Assembly: GCF_964019385.1 (NCBI RefSeq) | Contig: NC_088646.1 | Span: 41,847,908-41,911,907 of the forward strand | Origin: Sycon ciliatum | Taxonomy: Eukaryota; Porifera; Calcarea; Leucosolenida; Sycettidae | DNA: 64,000 bases | Reading direction: 5' to 3' | Shown here: piece after piece, positions 52,201 through 61,200 of the stretch | Position numbering within the stretch: the first letter of the stretch is position 1 | Layout: each line of letters begins with the position of its first letter | Position numbers and translations under genes: made by a program | The notes under the pieces: generated by a model | Told to the model about the DNA's origin: nothing | The model's input: only the letters and a program-made list of their open reading frames with translations | Database searches by the model: none

Positions 52201-55200
52201 GCTGGTGCTGTCAGTGCTGGTGTTGTCAGTGCTGGTGCTGTCAGTGCTGGTGTTGTCAGTGCTGGTGCTGTCAGTGCTGGTGCTGTCAGTGCTGGTGCTG
52301 TCAGTGCTGGTGCTGTCAGTGCTGGTGTTGTCAGTGCTGGTGTTGTCAGTGCTGGTGCTGTCAGTGCTGGTGTTGTCAGTGCTGGTGTTGTCAGTGCTGG
52401 TGTTGTCAGTGCTGGTGCTGTCAGTGCTGGTGTTGTCAGTGCTGGTGCTGTCAGTGCTGGTGCTGTCAGTGCTGGTGCTGTCAGTGCTGGTGTTGTCAGT
52501 GCTGGTGTTGTCAGTGCTGGTGCTGTCAGTGCTGGTGTTGTCAGTGCTGGTGTTGTCAGTGCTGGTGTTGTCAGTGCTGGTGCTGTCAGTGCTGGTGTTG
52601 TCAGTGCTGGTGCTGTCAGTGCTGGTGTTGTCAGTGCTGGTGTTGTCAGTGCTGGTGTTGTCAGTGCTGGTGTTGTCAGTGCTGGTGTTGTCAGTGCTGG
52701 TGTTGTCAGTGCTGGCGTTGTCAGTGCTGGTGCTGTCAGTGCTGGTGTTGTCAGTGCTGGTGCTGTCAGTGCTGGTGCTGTCAGTGCTGGTGTTGTCAGT
52801 GCTGGTGTTGTCAGTGCTGGTGTTGTCAGTGCTGGTGTTGTCAGTGCTGGTGCTGTCAGTGCTGGTGCTGTCAGTGCTGGTGTTGTCAGTGCTGGTGTTG
52901 TCAGTGCTGGTGTTGTCAGTGCTGGTGTTGTCAGTGCTGGTGTTGTCAGTGCTGGTGCTGTCAGTGCTGGTGCTGTCAGTGCTGGTGTTGTCAGTGCTGG
53001 TGTTGTCAGTGCTGGTGCTGTCAGTGCTGGTGCTGTCAGTGCTGGTGTTGTCAGTGCTGGTGTTGTCAGTGCTGGTGTTGTCAGTGCTGGTGTTGTCAGT
53101 GCTGGTGTTGTCAGTGCTGGTGCTGTCAGTGCTGGTGTTGTCAGTGCTGGTGGTGTCAGTGCTGGTGTTGTCAGTGCTGGTGCTGTCAGTGCTGGTGTTG
53201 TCAGTGCTGGTGTTGTCAGTGCTGGTGCTGTCACACGGCTGACTCGCGCTGTGCATATGGTAAGATGGCGTCTTTTTTACCGACTTTTTTCGCAAAAGGT
53301 TGTGATGGTGATCCGCGCGCGTCGCGTACGCGTCAGCGAAGCGACCGTACAATTTTTGTACAACAATGCACGTTTTGCATTGATTTTCGAAAAATGTTCA
53401 AGAAGAACCACTCGAAGCATACTTCGCTTCGTTCATCGTTTTGGAGTTTTAGCTTTGGAAGACGAGTCCTTTGGAGGTATGGCTGTGACATGCACACTTT
53501 ATTGTTTCAAACATGTTGAATTGCCTTACCTTGCCCACCTGCCACCCGCTCTTCAAAGAGCGCCCCAGTTCCACCTACCTCGACTTTCAGAATTTGCAGT
53601 TAGACAGAACTGTAATATTTAGAATCACAATTAGCTGCCAAAGCTACTCTCAGCCTAGCGTAATATGGTAGATGTATAGCTTCAACGTGTCTAATGGACT
53701 TACCTGGCCCACCTGCCACCCGCTCTTGAAAGAGCGCCCCAGTTCCACCTACCTCGGCGTTCAGAATTTTTTAGTTCGCCAGCAAAGTAATATTTTAGAA
53801 ACAGGATCAGCTGCCAATTCTCTCAGCCTGACGTTATGTTGTGGATTTATAGCTTCAACCTGTGGATTTGACTTACCTGCGCCCCATGGCCCAGCCTGTT
53901 TCACTCTCTTTCAAGGAGCACCCTACCTTGCGTTGAATCGTAGCATTTTGAGCTTGTGAATAATTTTGTAGTATTGAACGAGTAATTCATGTCGGTAGTT
54001 GGTTTGACTTACCTGCCCCAGCCTGCCTGAAGAAGCGCCCCTCACCTGATATCCAGCCATGTTCTTAGCATGGCTTGTGGATTTGACTCAACATTGTCTG
54101 TGCCAGTTCTACCTGCTGTGTGTACAACATTGTAAGAAGTTGACAAGAGTATTAGTACATTTCAATTTCAGAAACATAGTCAGAAATACTTTACCTGCGG
54201 AGCGCGTGGATCCTGCAGCTCGCTCCATGATCCACCCAGTGGCCGTCACATACTCAGCGTATTGCTAGCTTGTCTTCTTGCGCTTGGCAGCCGGCACGAT
54301 CAGCTTGTTGTGAGTTGGCAGCGCTGTCGTCAGGTACTGGGCCACTAGAATCCTGAGGCGGTCGACATCCTTGTTCGTATTTTGCAGAGTGTGGCGCAAC
54401 ATGTTGAACTTGTGGTGGATGGACTCGCCACCTTGCTCTCCAAGAGCACCAAGAGCCATGCCAAACCTCTCCATGCAGGGGACAAGATGACACTCGAGAA
54501 GGTGCAACTTAGGAGTTACAGGGCGTTTGTGGCGTGCTACTACCTCGGACCGGACATTCGCCATGAAGGAATTGATCTTCTCCTGCAAGCTGGAAGTGAC
54601 AGTGTCGTCAGCTGCGCTAGTCGAAGAGAAGACGGCTCTGCAACTGGCGTACGCAGCAAAAAGCGACAGGTACCTCTGGGAGCACTCTGCGGCAGCTTGG
54701 ATCAGTTGATGCTGAGACTGTGTCGGAGCAAAGTGGGCACCATCAGGATTGACAACAGAGGCGACTACATTGACCGGAGCAGATACAATTTCACGAGTTA
54801 CTGACGGTTGTTGTGCTTTGTTGATGTGGTTACCTACAAACGCGCCAGAATGATAGGCCTGCCGATCGATCCTGTGCTTCACCAAAACCGGTTCAAAGGA
54901 TGAAGCGCAAGGACCATTCTTGACCTTAGCACCCACGAGCTGCTCCTCTAAATGAGCGATGCGGCCGCTGATCTCATTTAATTGCTGCTGTTGTGTTGCC
55001 CAGTGCTGCTGTAACTGAGCTGCAAACCCTGCGTGTTGTGCTTCTGCCGCATGATTTGCTTGCACCGCTTGTGCTGCATTCAGCAATGCCCATTGCAGTT
55101 GCGTCTGTGCTACATAAAGCTGCTGTTCTTGCTGTGCCTTCTCTGATAGCAGTGCCCATAGCTGCTGCTGTTTCTCGGCTACTTCCTTGAATGTTGCGCT

Positions 55201-58200: not shown

Positions 58201-61200
58201 AAGACTGGATTGAAGGTTGAACTCTAACTCTAACTCTAAACTGACATCACTGAAGGTTCTAACTGGCCTTTCTAACTGTACTTCTAACTGGCGTGTAGAG
58301 AATTGTGAACAGCAGCTTTTATAGGCAGACAGCGTAAATGCTGCAGCAGCAATGGTCACGGCAAAGGCTCAGCAGAGAGAAGAAGAAAGGTCAAAGTATG
58401 TTGTGTGGGCTACAGTCATTGCACAAGGAATGCCATTTGATTCTATGCAGAAGAAGGAGCTGAATAGCAGTGTGGGCAATGGGCGTAAAAGAGGCGGTTG
58501 AAAGTGCAGCAGTATTTCTAAGGTCAAGAAACATTGAACGCAGTGAGACTAGTTGCTATCCATGTCATGGATCTGCAAGCACGGTACAGAGTTGCAAGTG
58601 CGGGGTACGGGTGCGGTGTAACACGCGTGACCAATACATTGAAAGTGATTCATGCTGCAGCTGTGTGAATTACTAGCGTGCCAACGCTACACTATTACCA
58701 TGCACTACCTCTACTTACCGGTATATACCTCACTACTTCTACATGTACGTACAGTCAACTTCGCTAATAACGACTTCGGATATAACGACAATTCGCGAAT
58801 AACGACAGAATTTCCATGCCCAGAGCAAAGTCCCATCTGACTGTATACATTTAACTTCGGATATAACGACTATCTGAATAACGACAATTCGCGAATAGCG
58901 ACATGATTTTAGTGCCCCGAGGTCATATTCACTGCTTGAATAACGACTTTCTGGTTTTTTGACAGCTATTTCAAGTACCTGGCATGCAGAAGTACCAGAA
59001 GAACCCGTGGCGATGGATAAGGCACACATACAAGAAGATACAGCCAGGGGGTGGGTGTTTTTCTTTTTTCTTTTCTTCAAAATAGTTGGAATGATCAGCA
59101 CACCTATTGGACATGTAGTTGTACAGTACATGATTGCACATTAATCTTCATACACGTACATGAACATGTCCCTGTAGATGGCTCCAAAAGGTAAATTTTT
59201 CAATTTATTTCCCTTGTATATTGACTTTATTGTTCCTTTCAATTGCAATACGAAAATAAAGTACAAATTGACGTAGAGCATGAAAAGAGCTTCATTTCGA
59301 TATGCATGTCATACTATACAAAATATGGGTTCACAAACATTCAAATGGGACTTCGGATATAAGGACACTTCGCGAATAAGGACACTTTTCTGATGCCCCG
59401 CCGAATGTCGTTATTCGCAAAGTTGACTGTATTTCCCACACCATGGGTGGACATCCTGAGCTGCTCACATGTGTGAGCTCCTGCTTTTTTTTTTTTTTTT
59501 TTTTTTTTTGCGGAATATTGGTCCGGCAGCTGCCGGACCTGCCAGACCGCCTGCTACGGCCCTGCACCGTGAAGGGATTTGGCTTTCTTTTGTCGGCCAC
59601 CCTTCCTCGCCGCAGCAATAGCCGTGCAAATGCTGCACTTCGTGTCTGTATGTGCAGACCATTGGTGCAAAGCTGGCAGTTTCTGACCACAACCACCACT
59701 AATACTAGCAACAGCAGCACTTCCTACTGTCTTCATGACAGACGTCATGCTATCAAAACACGCCTTGCAAAAATGACTTGGGTGTATATCCTCCTTATCT
59801 CCTTCCACTTTCTCACCAAACGCACGAAATATGTCTAGGGAGTAATCCTTGACACTATAGGTTGGGGCACTCCATGACTTGTTGCCCTTACGGTGGGTTG
59901 GTAGCTTGCAGCCACCCAAACGACATAGGGAATGCAAATGCCCCACATGAAACGCATAGTCATGATCAGGATCCATCGTAACACTCCACACAACCTATGC
60001 ACACAAATTTGAAAATTTTGAAAACAAGCACAATGTACCTTCGGGTAAGTCGCCGAGAACATGGATCTGCCCTTCAGAACACGAAGAACTTTTCTGAGCG
60101 TGGAAACAAGAGATAGTCCTACCTGGAAAAACCTCCCAAAGCCGTGGCGTTTGCTCCAGTAGGGTATACCAGGCGTCTCCAACTCCACTTCGAATCGTTA
60201 CCAAAGTCTCACTACGTAGCAGCGTTCAACAAGGAAGTCAGCAAAGAAACAGTTCGATCGGGAAAGAAACAGTTTTTTCGGCTCGGTTCCTGCAAGGCCC
60301 TACACTACCGCATGTATAGAGCTAGTTGGTGTGATTCTCGTTGTTCCGTGCAGCTCAGAAGGGCCTCGATATCAGCATAAGTCGACGATCGCGTCGAGCA
60401 AGTTTGAGAATTTTTTTGAATTTGAGTGCGGGGTTTCCCCGCAATCACGACTACAGAGCCTGTACTCATACCCACGCTGCTGTGCACTAGATCACGCACT
60501 GTGAGACAGCCGTGGTCAGTGCTGGTGCTGTCAGTGCTGGTGTTGTCAGTGCTGGTGTTGTCAGTGCTGGTGTTGTCAGTGCTGGTGTTGTCAGTGCTGG
60601 TGTTGTCAGTGCTGGTGCTGTCAGTGCTGGTGTTGTCAGTGCTGGTGTTGTCAGTGCTGGTGTTGTCAGTGCTGGTGTTGTCAGTGCTGGTGTTGTCAGT
60701 GCTGGTGCTGTCAGTGCTGGTGTTATCAGTGCTGGTGTTGTCAGTGCTGGTGTTGTCAGTGCTGGTGTTGTCAGTGCTGGTGTTGTCAGTGCTGGTGCTG
60801 TCAGTGCTGGTGCTGTCAGTGCTGGTGCTGTCAGTGCTGGTGCTGTCAGTGCTGGTGTTGTCAGTGCTGGTGCTGTCAGTGCTGGTGTTGTCAGTGCTGG
60901 TGCTGTCAGTGCTGGTGTTGTCAGTGCTGGTGTTGTCAGTGCTGGTGTTGTCAGTGCTGGTGCTGTCAGTGCTGGTGCTGTCAGTGCTGGTGTTGTCAGT
61001 GCTGGTGTTGTCAGTGCTGGTGCTGTCAGTGCTGGTGTTGTCAGTGCTGGTGTTGTCAGTGCTGGTGTTGTCAGTGCTGGTGCTGTCAGTGCTGGTGTTG
61101 TCAGTGCTGGTGTTGTCAGTGCTGGTGTTGTCAGTGCTGGTGCTGTCAGTGCTGGTGCTGTCAGTGCTGGTGTTGTCAGTGCTGGTGTTGTCAGTGCTGG

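Follow-up and report, generated by a model that had tools for sequence, protein, structure and literature searches.

Positions 53234 to 60514 of the window, a stretch of 64,000 nucleotides of the genome of the calcareous sponge Sycon ciliatum, very probably hold a RING-bearing Chapaev cut-and-paste DNA transposon. The assignment is judged by features of the element, which combines CAC...GTG ends, a 4-bp target-site duplication, a DDE core bearing the motifs C(2)C, LH and H(4)H, and a RAG1-type (Chapa) zinc domain together with a RING finger (Table 1). An S28 serine peptidase gene hosts the element in one of its introns, in antisense orientation.

Borders, copies and genomic setting

A first-pass annotation had proposed a RAG1-like DNA transposon at this place, with CAC-start inverted ends and a 4-bp duplication, and the ends, duplication, copies and domains all agree with it: the termini are CACGGCTG from 53234 and CAGCCGTG up to 60514, and GTCA flanks both. 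Five further copies at separate sites, 98.9-99.7% identical to the window element, carry the same ends; one pair among these near-identical copies differs by 1 nt over 4,642 bp. Their alignment stops at 53233-53234 on the left and 60514-60515 on the right, the exception being L010, whose right border lies 10 nt beyond that of the others. A search with the left-terminal 87 bases found 18 places, the match starting at base 1 in 17 of them and at base 9 in the copy L019. Other genomic copies have the same ends, and the refuting condition set in the first-pass annotation, copies ending elsewhere, did not hold. Both ends were located in 21 copies, of which 13 have an exact 4-bp duplication, five have one shifted by 1-3 nt at one side and three have none, against 0.5% exact and 2.4% displaced duplications in a random-flank control. 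The ends of L029, L030, L032, L036 and L038 were picked by a script that required CAC/GTG and tolerated a weaker inverted repeat given a duplication, a tolerance on which only L038 relies. CACGGCTG or a near variant is present even where protein identity between subfamilies is as low as 41%, CAC/GTG having been preset for the distant copies. Judged from sequence, the element belongs to a recently active family of cut-and-paste DNA transposons.

The borders are found independently by Tandem Repeats Finder, which halts a 15-bp minisatellite array at 53233 and resumes it at 60515; unless GTCA is treated as a 4-bp duplication, the array falls out of register. The identity of the host gene was decided by a genome-wide S28 profile (control signal in 2 of 14 genomes, above cut-off in none), and its matches bear out the earlier placement of the insertion inside a peptidase gene, both in the window and, on the same strand, beyond it, at C4:41926626 (E 2.2e-6) and weakly at C4:41912069 (E 5.4). 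Searched by themselves, the open reading frames of the host gene matched nothing in Pfam and nothing relevant in the PDB. A probable further exon encodes GGSYGG, which we take to be an S28 motif; the reading frame around it, searched by itself, gave no profile match.

Table 1. Features of the element and its surroundings (positions in the window)
Feature	Position	Strand	Remarks
Transposon copy, very probably Chapaev	53234..60514	transposase on -	7281 bp; borders from five copies, left-end search and minisatellite break
Target-site duplication GTCA, left	53230..53233	n/a	
Target-site duplication GTCA, right	60515..60518	n/a	
Terminal inverted repeat CACGGCTGACTC	53234..53245	+	transposase 3' side
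Terminal inverted repeat CACGGCTGTCTC (minus-strand reading)	60503..60514	-	transposase 5' side; 1 mismatch to other end
Transposase, N-terminal piece from ATG, RAG1-type (Chapa) zinc domain	59565..59976	-	PF12560 and mouse RAG1 profile match; start codon checked
Transposase, remainder to stop: RING, second finger, DDE core	54265..56929	-	
RING finger	56659..56775	-	
Putative catalytic Asp 1 (D522 of intact L010 protein)	55771..55773	-	invariant in 11/11 aligned proteins
Putative catalytic Asp 2 (D592)	55561..55563	-	invariant in 11/11
C(2)C pair (C611/C614)	55504-55506 and 55495-55497	-	invariant
H(4)H (H945/H950), aligned with RAG1 H937/H942	54502-54504 and 54487-54489	-	10/10 proteins extending there
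Putative catalytic Glu (E971), aligned with RAG1 E962	54424..54426	-	10/10 proteins extending there
Nested insert	56930..59564	n/a	2635 bp; ends CAGGCCCGTAGCAG / CTGCTACGGCCCTG; absent in 5/5 sister copies
5-bp duplication CACCG left of insert	56925..56929		second copy 59565-59569
TA-flanked inverted-repeat element within nested insert	58752..59429	n/a	678 bp
15-bp minisatellite, left part	50121..53233	n/a	207.5 units; Tandem Repeats Finder
15-bp minisatellite, right part	60515..62099	n/a	105.1 units; Tandem Repeats Finder
Host S28 peptidase exon	45101..45232	+	profile 3-46, E 6.7e-6
Host S28 peptidase exon	47004..47117	+	profile 46-83, E 3.0e-6; one in-frame stop near start, probably intron
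Probable host S28 exon, GGSYGG motif	62918..62966	+	flanks AG and GTAGGT

The transposase and its nested insert

The transposase is a single frame of 1,023 codons in the five sister copies, which are 4.63-4.64 kb long without the nested insert, and the frame is uninterrupted at the insert site in each of them. The minus-strand protein first read from the window copy is not one frame there, since the insert splits it; nor are the two coding parts exons, the gap between them being the insert that all five sister copies lack. No recognised protein domain was found in the 2.6-kb insert. The frame of the transposase remainder continues by chance into it, to 57060.

All parts of the protein that the first-pass annotation had named (RAG1-like N-terminus, RING, second finger and DDE core) were found. 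A profile search for RAG1 N-terminal domains, proposed there as a check, matched PF12560 (RAG1 importin binding) on the N-terminal piece above the cut-off (E 3.7e-9); the RING profile falls under the cut-off in the window copy and above it in the relative L034; and the family profile aligns colinearly with mouse RAG1 (residues 100-382, E 7e-26) over the N-terminal zinc domain, the RING and the second finger. PF06918/DUF1280 was also matched (E 7e-17), and LH at 678-679 is invariant among the aligned family proteins. NCBIfam gave a single meaningless match (E 0.7) and an Rfam scan of the window nothing; a protein search with the family alignment, aimed at RAG1/RAG1L and the Chapaevs of other animals, returned the same five proteins as the single query (about 7,990 candidates scored each).

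The core of the predicted structural model shares its fold with RAG1, Transib (HzTransib) and BbRAGL, confidence in the model as a whole being moderate (pLDDT 65.6). Modelling is poor in the N-terminal domain, where pLDDT lies below 50 over long stretches; there the RING fold was matched and only the RING portion is reliable, and the N-terminal zinc domain yielded no fold match.

From these features a course of events may be proposed: a single transposase (1,023 aa in the sister copies) would bind the element at its CACGGCTG ends, make the cuts there through a DDE active site held in a RAG1/Transib-type fold, and insert the element with a 4-bp stagger, possibly by way of the hairpin intermediate and paired-end complex expected from RAG1 and HzTransib; the RING and N-terminal zinc domain may tune the enzyme through ubiquitin-ligase or dimerisation use. 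The window copy landed, antisense, in the minisatellite of the S28 peptidase intron, and the 2.6-kb element broke it later.

History of the N-terminal module and the core

Each of the 28 family pairs shows lower conservation in the N-terminal part (mean 0.32) than in the core (mean 0.48), whereas against mouse RAG1 the order is reversed, with 24% identity in the N-terminal part and about 14% in the core; this reversal is what is new in the present analysis. The zinc domain is 27% identical to that of mouse RAG1, compared with 23.5% for the least similar family pair, and the family trend predicts 39% core identity to mouse RAG1 where about 14% is observed. A profile of the core alone, run against the PDB set with E up to 10, matched no RAG1, RAGL or Transib chain; the RAG1 core profile matches the C-terminal catalytic third of the relative L043 (E 1e-6).

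One explanation, argued by Kapitonov and Koonin (PMC4411706), is that one ancestor shared by Chapaev, Transib and RAG1 already had the N-terminal domain, RING and core and passed them on jointly, no module being exchanged. The identical domain order in RAG1 and the sponge element, the common core fold and the recognition of the catalytic third of L043 agree with this explanation, whereas the faster divergence of the N-terminal part within the family, the shortfall of core identity against mouse RAG1 and the failure of the core-only profile to match RAG1-type chains speak against it; we put it only a little short of an even chance, and it opposes the exchange described next, not the Chapaev assignment. 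Because the order of conservation reverses against mouse RAG1, an exchange of the N-terminal module is favoured over simple co-descent, although the low identities weaken this argument and the exchange becomes less likely in view of the match between the RAG1 core profile and the C-terminal third of L043. We therefore suggest only tentatively, rating it clearly below an even chance, that the RAG1 N-terminal module (zinc domain, RING and second finger) passed between RING-bearing Chapaevs and transposons of the RAG lineage once their cores had diverged.

The non-core N-terminus of RAG1 has been proposed to come from recombination with another element, N-RAG-TP (PMC8355894), or from a common ancestor of Chapaev and Transib (PMC4411706). 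Since RAG1-type N-terminal and RING domains had been described in Chapaevs before (PMC4411706), the relevance to RAG1 origins claimed in the first-pass annotation was already known in outline, and its exact bearing is still a matter of inference. Although Chapaev is a known kind of transposon, the sponge family helps to test how RAG1 was assembled: it offers a single-frame transposase, five sister copies and several subfamilies in one genome, in which N-terminal and core histories are directly comparable, and a RING-bearing enzyme of RAG1 fold for assays in which no RAG2 partner would be needed. If the module was exchanged, the sponge Chapaevs, which keep it on a distantly related core of RAG1 fold, would point to early-branching animals as the hosts of the donor kind of element.

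Affiliation and comparison with known systems

The RAG1-type N-terminus, RAG1-like fold and CAC ends would also suit a RAG-like (RAGL/ProtoRAG) or Transib transposon, but Transib (HzTransib) and RAGL/ProtoRAG make 5-bp target-site duplications, against 4 bp here; L010 has a single open reading frame of at least 150 aa, hence no unspliced RAG2-like gene; the core-only profile found no RAG1 or Transib match in the PDB set; and the RAG1 core profile (PF12940) has four matches genome-wide, one of them barely above the cut-off. That affiliation is accordingly very unlikely. PF12940 exceeds its cut-off solely on the C-terminal piece of L043 and in none of six full-length family proteins. L043, the best match, first looked like a true RAG1-like gene and is an internally deleted Chapaev, as is the second-best, L044; the other two lie at E 0.9, and the reading frames of one, L045, have no evident Chapaev N-terminus. 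Least probable of all is a domesticated host gene, for which the long intact frames might speak (42 of 51 match rows are stop-free, partial matches counted), since many dispersed copies carry inverted ends and duplications and the window copy is itself broken, the sister copies refuting it at this locus.

The Chapaev reading of the first-pass annotation is supported; its alternative label, N-RAG-TP, fits poorly, for the Aplysia element, which likewise carries RAG1-N-terminal-like sequence in a mobile element, is summarised as wholly of that kind (PMC8355894), and here there is a full DDE core. Canonical Transib is described as core only, with no other identifiable domain (PMC4411706). Among the papers listed by searches on sponge RAG1-type and Chapaev transposons, none dealt with sponge Chapaevs by title or abstract; in passages of PMC4298943, 'sponge' is the transposon Spongebob and Chapaev is merely named in a list, and passages of PMC3630058 held nothing relevant.

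Chapaevs, of the CMC superfamily, have 3-4 bp target-site duplications and 5'-CAC/GTG-3' ends (PMC4079192). The Chapaev3 elements Merrow, Garfield and Conan share the CMC motifs and CAC ends with the sponge element, but their duplication is a 3-bp TWA between A and T (PMC4079192), whereas here it is 4 bp of varied sequence, which sets the element apart from Chapaev3. Vertebrate RAG1 has the same colinear N-terminal zinc domain, RING and second finger, a DDE fold and aligned H937, H942 and E962; its core is only about 14% identical, and the sponge element is still a mobile element, with no unspliced RAG2-like partner gene. In description, the level at which they were compared, the element closely resembles lancelet and sea anemone Chapaevs (PMC4411706, PMC4079192), which have the same CAC...GTG ends, 4-bp duplication, Chapa domain followed by RING, and DDE core with C(2)C, LH and H(4)H, and from which the present element differs in its calcareous sponge host and its single-frame transposase.

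Insertion site and nested structure

The Chapaev element (contig NC_088646.1, C4, of the 538-Mb Sycon ciliatum genome) is enclosed by a 15-bp minisatellite that stops and resumes at the element's borders, so that the array itself reveals the pre-insertion site; the register of the array is preserved solely if a 4-bp duplication is assumed. Ends, duplication and interrupted minisatellite all agree with the first-pass annotation, which had described a transposon with CAC-start ends and a GTCA duplication. Its placement inside a peptidase gene is also borne out: S28 peptidase matches extend up to 47117 and an exon encoding GGSYGG, which we take to be an S28 motif, starts at 62918; therefore, the element lies antisense in the intron that these bracket (47117-62918). 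The single in-frame stop near the start of the second S28 match is probably part of an intron.

The main correction concerns the transposase, previously read as two coding parts: the protein stands, but the split is due to a nested 2,635-bp insert (ends CAGGSCCGTAGCAG) that breaks the frame after 56929 and is missing in all five near-identical sister copies, where the transposase is a single 1,023-codon frame from ATG. Three of the insert's ORFs were compared with Pfam, and none has a significant domain. The insert itself contains a 678-bp element, bringing to three the number of elements nested within the minisatellite. Direct repeats close to the transposase 3' end are possible subterminal binding sites. 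Elsewhere in the window, a long open frame without a match in Pfam contains what looks by eye like a reverse-transcriptase motif of the YADD type.

Features of the window and adjoining contig
Feature	Position	Strand	Details
Open frame	33742-37353	+	1,203 codons
S28 peptidase match	45101-45232	+	Pfam profile, E 6.7e-6
S28 peptidase match	47004-47117	+	Pfam profile, E 3.0e-6
15-bp minisatellite	50121-53233, 60515-62099		
Chapaev element	53234-60514	- (transposase)	start CACGGCTGACTC, finish GAGACAGCCGTG; GTCA on either side
Direct repeats	53506-53884		~175 bp, 81% alike
Nested insert	56930-59564		5-bp duplication CACCG; ends CAGGCCCGTAGCAG/CTGCTACGGCCCTG
100-bp tandem pair	57370-57567		within insert
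678-bp inverted-repeat element	58752-59429		TA-flanked; within insert
Short GGSYGG exon	62918-62966	+	bordered by AG and GTAGGT
Weak S28 peptidase match, past window	C4:41912069	same	Pfam profile, E 5.4
S28 peptidase match, past window	C4:41926626	same	Pfam profile, E 2.2e-6

Genomic copies and target-site duplications

Searching the genome with the transposase protein yields at least 51 match rows, a lower bound because 49 of the 1,173 first-look candidates were scored; 42 rows are free of internal stops when partial matches are counted. Five further copies have 99-100% protein identity, and other subfamilies lie at about 80, 63, 48 and 41-43%. Across the two parts of the window copy, the sister copies match it at 98.9-99.7% identity; their borders coincide with its own, confirming the ends first proposed. 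One mismatch in 4,642 positions separates copies L013 and L014, whose target-site duplications are perfect but different (AGGA and ACTC), which points to very recent transposition. Of 18 genomic sites matched by the left terminal 87 bases, 17 begin at the first base; two matches limited to the first 48 bases (G000:C107:53833-53880 and C12:23414934-23414984) are perhaps non-autonomous derivatives. EukProt protein P0002, whose name begins with the Sycon ciliatum prefix 'scpid', was retrieved using the transposase of a sister copy and shares 98.7% identity with the L015 protein.

Thirty loci fetched by protein search, including the window copy (L009), were surveyed for target-site duplications; both ends were placed for 20 of the other 29, giving 21 copies with the window (L019, L026, L027, L028, L031, L033, L034, L035 and L037, with one or both ends not located, were left out). 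The duplication is exact in 13, shifted by 1-3 nt in five (L011, L012, L017, L036 and L029, always on the left side of the locus as fetched) and absent from three (L010, L020 and L021, the last two probably one duplicated site, as they have a left flank in common); random flanks would give 0.5% exact and 2.4% displaced. The shifted duplication of L029 falls in a G run and is uninformative; the other four exceed the random rate. Between duplication and one transposon end, L011, L012, L017 and L036 have extra C, CAT, AT and C, respectively, which imprecise excision might have brought along from the donor. Sister copies L010, L011 and L012 (mutually 99.5-99.8% alike) lack a clean duplication, whereas L013 and L014 (99.98% alike) have perfect ones.

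Divergence of the N-terminal module and the core

In 28 of 28 pairs formed by eight full-length family members (three incomplete rows of the 11 were left out), the DDE core is better conserved than the N-terminal region (mean 0.48 versus 0.32), though the pairs are not independent; RAG1L N-terminal regions are likewise said to vary more in PMC7204232. Against mouse RAG1 the order flips: the N-terminal region is 24% identical and its zinc domain 27% (18% and 21% with shared Cys/His excluded), whereas the core is ~14% identical by structure, compared with 39% forecast by the within-family trend, although the two sets of identities derive from different alignment methods and are near saturation. 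With a core-only profile built from the eight members, RAG1, RAGL and Transib chains all went unmatched at E up to 10. On these near-saturated identities, we take the reversal to favour passage of the N-terminal module between RING-bearing Chapaevs and the RAG lineage after their cores split. Against such an exchange, the RING alone is equally similar to TRAF6. The RAG1 Pfam core profile matches none of six full-length family members; it does match the C-terminal piece of relative L043 (27.6 bits, cut-off 25; E 1e-6), so the C-terminal core retains detectable sequence kinship with RAG1, which lowers the odds of exchange, and we consider it possible but somewhat doubtful.

L043 (1456-3166) and L044 (238-1950), almost identical relatives of the L032 subfamily, are internally deleted: the transposase middle is missing, leaving a 286-codon frame that carries the RAG1-type N-terminal domain (importin-binding profile PF12560, E 1.2e-12 on L043) and a 227-codon C-terminal frame. 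Such a derivative could be mistaken for an element built of RAG1-N-terminal-like sequence, the description given for N-RAG-TP.

Comparison with known Chapaev elements

The hallmarks listed in PMC4079192 (3-4 bp duplication, CAC/GTG ends, and a DDE transposase with C(2)C, LH and H(4)H) are all present in the window element, supporting its initial assignment to Chapaev; C(2)C and H(3-4)H are common to Chapaev, EnSpm, Mirage, Transib and others, according to PMC12730594. Thus, this kind of element is already known. Our searches of open-access papers returned no publication on sponge Chapaevs. To the known kind, the present family adds a sponge host, members with a single-frame transposase, and the reversed divergence of N-terminal region and core.
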